Below the pieces are notes generated by a model. It saw only the letters and a list, made by a program, of their open reading frames with translations. It was not told the DNA's origin and made no database searches. A program made the position numbers and the translations under genes. From the NCBI GenBank assembly GCA_012729655.1, contig JAAYCS010000063.1, positions 1 through 43,966 of the forward strand: DNA of 43,966 nucleotides, given 5' to 3'. Below, one piece after another: positions 5,497 through 43,852 of this stretch (position 1 is its first letter; each line of letters starts with the position of its first letter). Source of the DNA: Desulfovibrionales bacterium (GTDB lineage: Bacteria; Desulfobacterota; Desulfovibrionia; Desulfovibrionales; Desulfomicrobiaceae).

Positions 5497-6138
5497 TCAG
5501 CTGCGCAGGCTGTCCAGCTCCGCCTCGATCAGAGGTACGATCCCGTCCACGATGCGTTCCACCCCTCTGGCGTTGGGGTGCAGGCCGTCGTCCAGGACCA
5601 GTGCATTGTCTGCGACCACCCCCTCCAGAAAGAATGGGTACAAGGGGAGGTCGTATTTGCTGGCCAGATCCGGAAAAACAGCATCGAAATGTTTTTTGTA
5701 GGGCAAACCCCAATTGACCGGAGCGCGCATCCCGGCCAGTATGACCCGGGTATCGGCCTTGCGGCACAATTCGATCATGGCCTCCAGGTTGGCCCGCATC
5801 CGCTCTGGATCCAGGCCGCGCAGGCCATCGTTGGCGCCCAACTCCAAGATGACCAGATCAGGCTTGTCCTCCAGGGACCAGGGTAGCCTGGCCAAACCGC
5901 CGCCAGTCGTGTCTCCGGACACGCCGGCATTGGTGACCCGCACCGCTCGACCCTTCTCACGCAGGCGTTGTTCCAGCCTGGCCGCGAAAGAATCCGATGG
6001 GGCTAGACCATAGCCTGCGGTCAGACTGTCACCGAAGGCGAGTATGTGCACGGTGGATTCCCCCATGGCCGGCTGGGCCAGACAGATCATTGATACAAAA
6101 ACAACCCACCGCATGCCCCGTATAAGGATGGATGACAT
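5497..6138 (-). CDS. tesA: SGNH-family esterase / lysophospholipase (TesA-like arylesterase)
   Basis: A 213-aa secreted hydrolase of the SGNH fold. Residues 1-26 are a signal peptide (core MRWVVFVSMICLAQPAMG). Block I, FGDSLTAGYGL, carries the catalytic Ser; block II is NAGVSGDTTGGG; block III is LELGANDGLRG with the oxyanion-hole Asn; block V is DGLHPN with the catalytic Asp and His. Relatives cleave acyl-CoA thioesters, aryl esters and lysophospholipids in the periplasm. It lies head-to-head with the ybbA-ybbP pair, as tesA does in E. coli, and the start codons overlap by 2 bp. An internal start at 6114 would also give a signal peptide, but only 6138 has a good site (AGAGGGG). The true substrate is unknown. 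Confidence 0.9.
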   Translation of the reverse strand: MSSILIRGMRWVVFVSMICLAQPAMGESTVHILAFGDSLTAGYGLAPSDSFAARLEQRLREKGRAVRVTNAGVSGDTTGGGLARLPWSLEDKPDLVILELGANDGLRGLDPERMRANLEAMIELCRKADTRVILAGMRAPVNWGLPYKKHFDAVFPDLASKYDLPLYPFFLEGVVADNALVLDDGLHPNARGVERIVDGIVPLIEAELDSLRS

Positions 6139-10657: not shown

Positions 10658-11157
10658 GTTGATCTCCTTTGGAATCTCGGAGTGCTGTTGGAAATTTGTT
10701 CCTGCCTTGATCTCCGTCAAATTCTTCTGCTCTGCAGTCTGGCGGGCTGGCCCTTCACCCGGCGACGATGCACCTGCCTGCAAGGTGCAGTGCATGGTCA
10801 GCCGCCGCGTGGCGCATTTCTTCCGGTGCGTCGATTGTGCGTTGCTCAGCGTCAAGGGCATGGGCAAAAAAGAGCGGGTTGCGCGGCCTGGACTTACTTG
10901 CAGATGGATACACCAGAAGCAGGTGATGAATCCAGGAGCCCTGCGACAAGCGGCTTTCGTACATTGGCAAACGGTGAAAGGTCGTTTTCAGTCCGCCAAT
11001 GTCCTTTGCGTTTGAAATGAGGTTCACACTGGGCCTGTCTCTGAGCGACACTCTCTCGGTCACCTCTGGCGATTGTGCGGATTCTGGAGCAGGCTTGCAC
11101 TCCCTGCAGCTCGTGCGTATGCCCTCGTACCGGCGTGCAGGATGTTTCAGGAGGTTG
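10658..11157. other. 500-bp divergent intergenic region
   Basis: Separates the minus-strand permease from the plus-strand APS-reductase-like gene and must hold promoters for both. I find no promoter good enough to place. The open frames on both strands lack ribosome binding sites and recognisable domains. Confidence 0.4.
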
Positions 11158-23266: not shown

Positions 23267-23731
23267 GCAGCCTTTTCTCGTCCGGAACCGGATGTGTCGA
23301 TGCCTGGAATATCCGTGCACTTCCCGGGCCTGCTGATCTGCCAGGCAGTCCTCGCGCTCCGGCGAGAAAACCCCTGCATGGATGACGGCGCAGTACACTT
23401 GGCCTGGCGCGTTGGGCCAGTCGTCTCGATGGTCCGCGTGGTGCTCGGCGCCATGATGGTCGTAGTCACCAGGTCGGAGACCAGGCAGGCGGTCTGATCG
23501 TGAATGTGGCTGGGAAGTGGCAGAAAGGACCTTTTCTGCGACTCGAAAGGGGTCATGAGGGTCTTGTTCCCATGGACCAGGGTGCTACCCGGATGCGGAG
23601 GATGAGGTCCTGCCAGGTGGTGTCGTTGCTCTTGGTGATCATGGGATCCGTCCTGCGTGTTCACGCCGCCATTCTCTATCCCAAGCCCCCCCGCTTGACA
23701 AACGCGGAATGCATGGGGCAGTAAAATTTCC
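23267..23731. other. 465 bp between the pseudouridine synthase and the trp leader
   Basis: No convincing gene; frames on both strands lack start signals and known domains. The promoter of the trp leader must lie in the right part. A perfect TTGACA occurs at 23695-23700, but no good -10 element follows at 16-18 bp, and TAAAAT at 23722-23727 is 21 bp away and too near the leader ATG. I therefore leave the promoter unplaced. Confidence 0.4.
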
Positions 23732-23809
23732 ATGAAAATCACGGCCAGCAGCGTTTCCCTTCTTTGGTGGCGGCATGGAATACATGCCGTGGGATGCGTG
23801 TTGGCCTGA
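23732..23809 (+). CDS. trpL: trp leader peptide with tandem tryptophan codons, 25 aa
   Basis: A 25-codon frame from ATG 23732 to TGA 23807-23809. Codons 12-13 (23765-23770) are TGG TGG, in the context SLLWWRHG. It stands directly ahead of an attenuator and trpB. Its job would be to sense charged tRNA-Trp by ribosome stalling, not to make a useful peptide. Weak points: there is no clear Shine-Dalgarno site (only GGGG 13 nt upstream), and the promoter is not identified. The fit of the Trp codons to the hairpin positions makes chance unlikely. Confidence 0.75.
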   Translation: MKITASSVSLLWWRHGIHAVGCVLA

Positions 23810-23872
23810 AATCCGCCAGAGGATAAGCGAATACCAGCCGCGGCAGTGCACACTGACCGCGGTTTTTTTTTT
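23771..23872 (+). promoter_or_regulatory. Tryptophan transcription attenuator ahead of trpB
   Basis: Four RNA segments can be read. Segments 1:2 are CGGCATG (23771-23777) with CATGCCG (23783-23789), a perfect 7-bp stem right after the Trp codons. Segments 3:4 form the terminator: CCGCGGCAGT (23838-23847) with ACTG-A-CCGCGG (23852-23862, one bulged A), then ten T (23863-23872). Segments 2:3 form the antiterminator: TGCCGTGG (23785-23792) pairs with CCGCGGCA (23838-23845), 8 bp including one G-U. A ribosome stalled at 23765-23770 would mask segment 1 and free segment 2 for antitermination; one reaching the stop at 23807 would favour the terminator. trpB begins 23 bp after the U-tract. Confidence 0.85.
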
Positions 23873-23895
23873 CAAAAAACCCCAAGGAGGCACTC

Positions 23896-25142: not shown

Positions 25143-25238
25143 GTCTGTTGCGCCGCATGGCACCCCGTCTTCACGGGACCGGCTTCCGGCCGGGCGTCGT
25201 GAAGTCTTAGGGCTGGCTGTTAAAAAACACCAAATGTG

Positions 25239-25364
25239 CAGGCCGTTCCAAAATGGTGAGATGCAAGGAAGCGAAAAAAGCCAGACCGCTTATGTATGCG
25301 AAAATACACTGCGCGTCCTGGCTTTTTTCGCTGACGCAGCAGATCACCGTTTTGGGGCGGCCTG
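25239..25364. repeat. 126-bp imperfect inverted repeat (possible REP/MITE-like intergenic element)
   Basis: The arms, about 46 nt each, begin CAGGCCG (25239) and end CGGCCTG (25364). They share CCAAAA-n-GGTGA and a perfect 14-bp core, GCGAAAAAAGCCAG (25271-25284) with CTGGCTTTTTTCGC (25318-25331); 33 nt lie in the centre. The right end touches the stop codon of the metallo-hydrolase gene, for which the fold with its T6 tract could act as terminator. The layout is that of a mobile-type intergenic palindrome; copy number cannot be judged from one window. Confidence 0.75.
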
Positions 25365-26057
25365 TCAGCGCACCAGCCCGACGGGCACGCCGACCTCGGC
25401 CTTTATCAACGCGTCGCCCAGCTCCAGCTTGTCCAGCTCCTTTTTGAAGGCGTCCACGTTCTGGGCCAGGGCCGGGAAGGTGCCCCAGTGCATGGGGATG
25501 ACCTTCCTGCATCTGAGCATCATGGTCGCCATGGCCGCCTGGGCCGCGTCCATGGTGAAGACGCCGCCGATGGGCAGCAGGGCCAGGTCGATCCTGTGCA
25601 GCTTACCCCACAGGGCCATGGACGAGAAAATGCCCGTGTCCCCGGAGTGGTAGACCGTGTAGCCGTCCTCCAGCCGGACGATGAAGCCCACGGGCACGCC
25701 GGCTTCGCAGGAGTGGTGGGCCTGGGTCATGGTCACCGAGATGCCCTGATGGATCACGGTGCCACCGATGTTGAAACCGATGCCGTTCAGGACCTGATCG
25801 CCCGGCAGACCCTGGGACTTGAGCCTGGCCGCCAGCTCCACGATGCAGCCCAGGGTGGCCCCGGTGCGCCTGCAGATGTCCAGGGCCTGGCCGACGTGGT
25901 CGCCATGGTCGTGGGTGACCAGGACCAGGTCGGCGTCGATGTTCGCCGCCGCGGCCTTGGCCGAGGGGTTCCCGTCGAACCAGGGGTCGATGAGGATTGT
26001 TTTATTTCCGGATGTTATGGCGAAGGCCGAGTGGCCGTGCCAGGTCAGGGTGTTCAT
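25365..26057 (-). CDS. Metal-dependent hydrolase, UPF0173 (metallo-beta-lactamase fold)
   Basis: A 230-aa cytoplasmic protein of the YtkL/UPF0173 group: it starts with [11 protein letters not shown] and [12 protein letters not shown], has the metal motif THDHGDH, then [29 protein letters not shown] and, at the end, [12 protein letters not shown]. These supply the His/Asp ligands for two metals. No substrate is established for the group; the fold hydrolyses phosphate esters, lactones or related bonds. The ATG at 26057 follows AAGGAGA. The stop codon abuts the long inverted repeat. Confidence 0.9.

Positions 26058-42479: not shown

Positions 42480-43852
<1,373 letters not shown>

Follow-up and report, generated by a model that had tools for sequence, protein, structure and literature searches.

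How a solitary trpB gene is controlled is the question raised by a stretch of DNA of 43,966 nucleotides (the window), which is contig 41 of a 226-contig draft genome of a Desulfovibrionales bacterium. A first-pass annotation, made from the sequence alone, had proposed that this trpB lies behind a tryptophan attenuator with a leader peptide carrying tandem Trp codons. Our analysis supports that reading, with a probability that we put at about 0.94: the region would be a ribosome-mediated transcription attenuator, with trpB transcribed when charged tRNA-Trp is scarce. The attenuator elements claimed are all present in the window sequence (Table 1). The leader with its tandem Trp codons, the perfect 1:2 stem directly after them, the alternative 2:3 pairing, and the 3:4 terminator with its run of ten T ahead of trpB were each borne out. 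The gene stands alone under the device, as had been stated, with no match to trpA, trpE, trpG, trpD, trpC, or trpF in the window. The leader also lacks a strong Shine-Dalgarno site, with a pairing energy to the anti-Shine-Dalgarno sequence of -4.7 kcal/mol versus -10.9 kcal/mol for trpB.

Table 1. Features of the solitary trpB locus and of related candidate attenuators. Positions refer to the window unless another locus is named.
Feature	Position	Strand	Remarks
-35 element TTGACA	23695..23700	+	31 nt 5' of leader ATG
Weak -10-like hexamer CAGTAA	23719..23724	+	spacer 18; best-scoring -10
Leader ORF, 25 codons, MKITASSVSLLWWRHGIHAVGCVLA	23732..23809	+	ATG 23732, TGA 23807-23809; probably leaderless
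Tandem Trp codons TGG TGG, leader codons 12-13	23765..23770	+	read from sequence
Segment 1	23771..23777	+	7 perfect pairs with 23783-23789; begins at base after Trp codons
Segment 2, half pairing with segment 1	23783..23789	+	
Segment 2, half pairing with segment 3 (antiterminator)	23785..23792	+	8 pairs with 23838-23845, one G-U
Segment 3	23838..23845	+	
3:4 terminator hairpin	23838..23862	+	10 pairs, one bulged A
Ten T 3' of terminator stem	23863..23872	+	read from sequence
Shine-Dalgarno site AAGGAGG of trpB	23884..23890	+	anti-Shine-Dalgarno duplex -10.9 kcal/mol
Solitary trpB, 402 aa	23896..25104	+	NCBIfam TIGR00263, 600 bits, cut-off 392
Candidate enzyme-tail attenuator, own genome	L003 4109-4262 (G000 contig 72)		WWW tail, terminator
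Tyr/Phe/Trp-rich leader with terminator	L233 4950 (G000 contig 72); L235 4343; L234	L234 minus	TTGAC-to-ATG gaps 34, 34, and 30 nt, respectively

The attenuator region folds more stably than its shuffled counterparts (-64.4 versus -45.3 +/- 4.1 kcal/mol; z = -4.67). A short open reading frame that contains WW and is followed by a terminator no more than 170 nt away was found a single time in the window, compared with 0.025 times per dinucleotide shuffle (1 match in 40 shuffles). The arrangement resembles the enteric attenuator (E. coli trpL, Rfam RF00513), with which we compared it, in having tandem Trp codons before segment 1, the 1:2, 2:3, and 3:4 pairings, and a terminator with a U-run. In contrast to E. 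coli trpL, the target is a solitary trpB rather than a trp operon, a strong Shine-Dalgarno site is missing, and the stop codon lies past segment 2. The geometry had been described as classically enteric, which holds for the codons, the order of the stems, and the alternative pairings and fails for the position of the stop. The related proposal that segment 2 is covered by a ribosome that has reached the leader stop proved wrong for this locus, because 14 bases separate the end of segment 2 (23792) from the stop, a distance at which a terminating ribosome would not cover segment 2. The E. coli trp leader stop sits in the 1:2 loop. Among 69 device-bearing loci with a callable hairpin, the stop falls within the 1:2 loop in 48, past segment 2 in 20, and within segment 1 in 1. 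Placement of the stop would thus be a variable rather than a defining trait of trp attenuators.

The other half of the geometric proposal, that a stalled ribosome would cover segment 1, is supported by distance and by predicted folds. The distance between the start of the Trp run, measured from its first codon, and segment 2 is 18 nt in the window and 17 to 20 nt in 67 of 69 loci. When the RNA under a stalled ribosome was removed, using a mask the size of a ribosome footprint, segment 1 was hidden, segment 2 was left free, and the predicted fold switched from 1:2 plus 3:4 to 2:3. In these calculations, which are equilibrium folds with an assumed footprint whereas actual switching is kinetic, the probability of 2:3 with the ribosome in place was 0.91 to 1.0 before segment 4 is made and 0.83 to 0.92 afterward. 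The corresponding ribosome-free values were 1.0 for 1:2, 0.77 to 1.0 for 3:4, and 0 for 2:3.

In the mechanism that we propose, RNA polymerase would start at, or a few bases from, the leader ATG, and a ribosome would load onto the 5'-terminal AUG. A stall at codon 12 or 13 would mask segment 1, and segment 2 would then pair with segment 3, so that no terminator would form and trpB would be read. A ribosome that moved past the Trp codons would instead run through segment 2 and disrupt 2:3; the 1:2 stem would re-form behind it, 3:4 would form, and transcription would end in the T-run. If no ribosome were present, 1:2 and 3:4 would form and transcription would likewise end. Whereas the sequence elements, the predicted folds, the covariation, and the conservation of the device are results of this analysis, we infer the transcription start, the translation of the leader, the stalling, and the direction of the response.

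Conservation of the device was evaluated in 101 related genomes, in which 41 orthologues of the solitary trpB (65 to 100% identity) were found. The whole device precedes 22 of them, 2 have a remnant or doubtful version, and 17 have none. The first-pass annotation had regarded retention of trpB upstream of which the Trp codons or the alternative pairing are lost as an argument against attenuation, and this situation exists in those 17 orthologues and in part in the 2 others (L022 and L024). The 19 orthologues without an intact device are therefore counterevidence to the attenuator reading. Sixteen of the 17 belong to one genus (L028 to L043, g12), the other being L023, and none of the 17 has a WW frame. 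The eight rows from the device-less genus that were included in a TrpB tree nest within device-bearing lineages, and thus the pattern reads as loss of the whole module. TTGACA is found before the solitary trpB in many members of this genus despite the lack of a WW leader. Of the two partial cases, L022 has a leader with Trp codons and no terminator. L024 has a Trp-rich frame, MLRYWIWWCQMDAYWECYQR, without TTGACA or a match to the covariance model described below. This frame, together with the inverted repeat TATCAGCGT/ACGCTGATA, was observed about 117 to 135 nt 5' of trpB in L024, and that upstream region is perhaps a much-changed attenuator.

At E <= 0.01, a covariance model built from 29 sequences (26 distinct) matched 99 of the 348 genomes from this order that were searched, representing 27 of 59 genera, with false matches included in both counts. 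We read 57 further matches individually: 49 precede trpB (63 to 84% identity) and 8 do not, the latter comprising five plain terminators (L194, L198, L208, L209, and L211) and three Phe or Tyr/Phe leaders. With loci read one by one, the device was found before trpB in 21 genera. A class-level search of 348 genomes, the same number as in the order search, added nothing. A draw of 395 genomes from the phylum, some of them of the same order, returned at E <= 1e-4 the genome under study and, outside the order, a plain terminator (L236). WW or WWW is present in 69 of the 70 leaders scored, and the exception (L181) has Trp codons that are not adjacent, NWRRLW. From these sequence comparisons, the device appears to control a lone second trpB in many genera of Desulfovibrionales, which are sulfate-reducing bacteria.

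An alternative is that the window has an ordinary intrinsic terminator behind a chance reading frame, leaving trpB without Trp-specific control; in its favor, plain terminators (L236 and the five listed above) do score with the covariance model. We consider this explanation highly improbable, because many genera retain the Trp codons, the distance from these to segment 2, and the alternative pairing, with compensatory changes, and because a promoter-like TTGACA lies immediately 5' of the leader. Alignment of relatives, as the first-pass annotation had suggested, revealed both the conserved Trp codons and the compensatory changes. In the 26 distinct sequences, 98.9% of 440 alignment cells in the 1:2 and 3:4 helices are paired (98.4% for 3:4 by itself), versus 22.6 to 45.1% in slid controls. 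Changes on both sides occur in 6 of the 17 pairs of these helices (4 of 7 in 1:2 and 2 of 10 in 3:4), and 46 cells carry such changes versus 13.4 in shuffles. Compensatory changes thus support the hairpins.

For the 2:3 helix, 91.6% of 202 cells are paired, versus 28.7 to 67.2% in slid controls, and one pair (17-88) fails in 12 of the 26 sequences. The covariation statistics for this helix are weaker than those of the others. A double change (C-G to U-A) affects one of its eight pairs, a pair count reached in 149 of 500 shuffles; the number of cells with a double change was matched in 0 of 500 shuffles, and additional pair types did not exceed those in shuffles. The double change is part of a joint shift of columns 19, 86, and 101 from C/G/C to U/A/U in L019, L020, and L055. 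Column 86 belongs to segment 3 and partners with column 19 in 2:3 and with column 101 in 3:4; because the three columns change together, segment 3 retains both of its alternative partners. The triple change may be a single event because the three loci belong to one genus. Covariation is thus present in both of the mutually exclusive pairings, 2:3 and 3:4. The attenuator reading is supported by retention across many genera of the identity and position of the codons, the alternative pairings, and the target gene.

A leader RNA could in principle be sensed without a translating ribosome, by a T-box, by a riboswitch, or by an RNA-binding protein such as TRAP; the analysis yielded nothing in favor of this. 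The Trp codons stay in frame, the sole Rfam match in the window at the gathering threshold is a distant cobalamin riboswitch, and no T-box was detected even at E 10 in 211 bases around the leader, all of which makes this explanation extremely improbable. The best Rfam match of the leader is to the Trp_leader family RF00513, at full length (model positions 1 to 100), with 21.2 bits versus a gathering score of 41. At the gathering threshold, none of 12 loci (that of the window and 11 relatives) had a leader match in Rfam. Our findings thus add a widely distributed Trp attenuator that, in the loci tested, is missed by Rfam Trp_leader at its gathering score.

The lack of a strong Shine-Dalgarno site probably reflects a leader mRNA that is itself leaderless. 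The start of the leader was analyzed in 72 loci picked because they bear the device (L023 and L024 were left out), 70 of which could be scored with a script that required a hexamer with no more than one mismatch to TTGACA located 24 to 39 nt before the ATG of a frame containing two or more Trp codons. Where several ATGs fit (9 of the 70 loci), the one nearest to 31 nt was chosen. Even though 24 to 39 nt was allowed, the gap was 28 to 34 nt in all 70 loci, with TTGACA exact in 63 and with one mismatch in 7. In the two unscored loci the gap is 29 nt (L022) and 30 nt (L179). As a control, such a hexamer precedes 167 of 3,360 other ATGs of the same loci at 24 to 39 nt. For the best -10 hexamer of the five spacings considered, the spacer to the -35 measures 17 or 18 nt in 59 of the 70 loci, the second base is A in 59, and the distance from the hexamer end to the ATG is 6 to 8 nt in 54. 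A scan with the sigma-70 consensus listed no promoter, the TTGACA and weak -10 falling under its thresholds, and did not list the 3:4 terminator. The leader ATG is positioned, relative to the -10, where transcription is expected to start. At position -1, directly before the ATG, 69 of the 70 loci have a pyrimidine. With TTGACA 28 to 34 nt ahead, transcription should therefore start at or near the ATG, a promoter placement appropriate for a leaderless leader gene. The mean pairing energy with the anti-Shine-Dalgarno sequence is -2.2 kcal/mol for the leaders versus -8.1 kcal/mol for trpB (scored in 67 of the 70 loci). As judged from these sequence patterns, the leader mRNA is most likely leaderless, with its 5' end at or near the ATG.

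It is also conceivable that the same attenuator has a real 5' untranslated region, with transcription starting well upstream and leadered translation, perhaps from an upstream start codon. For example, an in-frame upstream ATG, GTG, or TTG is present in 45 of the 70 leaders and could serve if transcription began earlier, and 14 of the 70, including that of the window, reach -4 kcal/mol in pairing with the anti-Shine-Dalgarno sequence, a modest value. The -10 hexamers are weak (mean score of 7.07 versus 6.08 when shuffled). However, the remaining 25 leaders, including that of the window, have no in-frame upstream start, and the nearly constant placement of TTGACA (70 of the 72 loci), the pyrimidine at -1, and the distance from the hexamer end to the ATG are not what a long untranslated region would lead one to expect. 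We regard this variant as unlikely, albeit deserving of serious consideration, and favor a leaderless start. The nearly invariant start geometry would make these leaders a compact natural system for studying leaderless initiation in an attenuator.

In Sinorhizobium meliloti, the 5' end of the attenuator RNA (rnTrpL) is the ATG of trpL, which is leaderless; this leader has Trp codons, controls trpE(G) by attenuation, and yields a 14-amino-acid peptide with reported functions in trans (PMC7298713). The start site is known in that case, whereas in Desulfovibrionales it is inferred. The trpL1 leader of Streptomyces lividans is a leaderless Trp leader with three Trp codons (PMC8079986) that, like the leader in the window, precedes a single gene, in this instance trpE and in a different phylum. 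Leaderless trpL is thus already known from Sinorhizobium and Streptomyces, and by analogy the Desulfovibrionales leader would join that kind. In Corynebacterium diphtheriae, attenuators precede trpB1EDGC and trpB2A (PMC1262725, PMC5784534). That genome likewise contains two trpB genes, with a Trp attenuator ahead of a trpB copy; unlike the window, in which trpB is alone, each trpB there heads an operon. Titles and the opening lines of abstracts revealed no trp attenuator in Desulfovibrio or its relatives, which is weak evidence because subscription journals are mostly outside coverage. The accessible text of a regulatory reconstruction for delta-proteobacteria (PMC545781) does not contain the terms 'tryptophan', 'trpB', or 'leader peptide'.

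The solitary gene encodes a TrpB that scores above the cut-off of the tryptophan synthase beta model. Its closest relatives with a genus name are from Desulfomicrobium (95 and 94% identity). The second trpB of the genome, 54% identical, is on another contig in a trp run, E-G-D-C-F-B-A, in which genes were named from gene order and the look of the sequences, with TrpB and the gene before trpE identified by profile. Of the 41 genomes that carry a solitary copy, 40 have at least two TrpB matches, and the exception is 83% complete. With the operon TrpA as the query, no match was obtained in the window or in any of the additional stretches examined, which continued for about 1.5 kb beyond trpB in most of L001 to L043, up to 6 kb in L044 to L066, and barely past the end of trpB in L153 to L212, where the search carries little information. 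Matches to TrpD, TrpC, and TrpF were found in L064 only, which is from a termite-gut metagenome-assembled genome (MAG).

In a tree of 81 TrpBs, the 49 rows labeled solitary cluster together (100/100) and are separate from the operon TrpBs, which make up two groups; the solitary group includes five rows from outside the order (L060 to L062, L066, and L087). The device links a Trp attenuator to a solitary, separately inherited TrpB. The group adjoins mostly Firmicutes TrpBs, a position that provides no estimate of origin because sequences from outside the order had been selected for their resemblance to the query. The solitary TrpB may act as a second beta subunit or, as a guess, in indole salvage. 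The best PDB match by sequence is LBCA-TrpB (5EY5). A signature for stand-alone TrpB, LBCA-Res6, consists of E, E, T, S, A, and M at six positions (PMC11917138). The solitary TrpB has D, E, S, S, F, and K, two of six matches, with an offset of 2 to the published numbering inferred from all six letters matching; therefore, the signature provides no support for stand-alone activity.

The trpB attenuator led to a more surprising one. Judging from sequence, the main trp operon would have its own attenuator of a different design, in which the Trp codons are the C-terminal tail of an upstream enzyme. We read 20 regions upstream of trpE, from the genome under study and 19 relatives (L124 to L142). 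In 18 of them (the former and 17 of the relatives), an upstream frame of 258 to 330 codons carries WWW close to its 3' end, and a hairpin with a T-run lies between that frame and trpE. L132 and L142 have a separate short leader before trpE instead. The frame before trpE in the genome under study, the only one of the 20 identified by profile, is prephenate dehydrogenase; the profile match extends to residue 229 of 259, and WWW, at residues 246 to 248, lies past its end. In 15 regions, including the 2 with separate leaders, RNA 3' of WWW pairs with the 5' arm of the terminator better than most mononucleotide shuffles do (shuffles were as strong in 0 to 9 of 200 cases in 14 regions and in 23 of 200 in L139). 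A pairing of the 2:3 type is thus possible at the trpE attenuator, and the enzyme tail would serve as the leader peptide.

Leaders rich in other aromatic codons were also found. At the head of the aro-tyr-trp cluster, to which the main trp operon belongs, a YFFWYFYF leader follows TTGACA by 34 nt in the genome under study and in G015. In G015 and G100 (L234, L235), the gene after this type of leader was identified by profile as ADH synthase. A Phe/Tyr leader, SFYFSFYY, on the minus strand of L210 precedes a gene that by its look resembles the same aldolase; it has a Shine-Dalgarno-like AAGGAA and a TTGAC-to-ATG gap of 51 nt. Phe-rich leaders with terminators at L201 (311) and L212 (296), which were matches of the covariance model, start 33 to 34 nt after TTGACA and precede a phenylacetate-CoA-ligase-like gene; its profile score, obtained for L212 alone, is 626 bits against a cut-off of 646. 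A small second gene at these two loci, for which NCBIfam gave no match, resembles an ACT protein gene.

These observations tip the balance slightly toward the possibility that Desulfovibrionales run an aromatic and tryptophan regulon through three attenuators whose start design is unusual. The first may be the leaderless Tyr/Phe/Trp leader before the first shikimate genes; the second, the translated C-terminal tail of prephenate dehydrogenase, which may sense Trp before trpE; and the third, the Trp leader in front of the solitary trpB, likewise leaderless. If this scheme were true, the sensing ribosome would either load on a 5'-terminal AUG or already be making a full-length enzyme, and Trp sensing would be coupled both to initiation on leaderless mRNA and to how the competing Tyr branch is expressed.

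Several further features were observed. In L087, a Synergistaceae MAG, a Trp leader (NSWWCV*) and a terminator precede TrpB at about 5600 to 5911, and an SD-like GGGGGAAG lies 5' of that leader; between TrpB and position 11000, no ATG frame of 120 codons begins on the plus strand. In the window, an imperfect inverted repeat follows trpB at 25215 to 25370, and partial copies (79 and 87%) on contig 179 make it look like a dispersed repeat. The cobalamin riboswitch of the window is at 43453 to 43631 on the minus strand and scores 91 bits.
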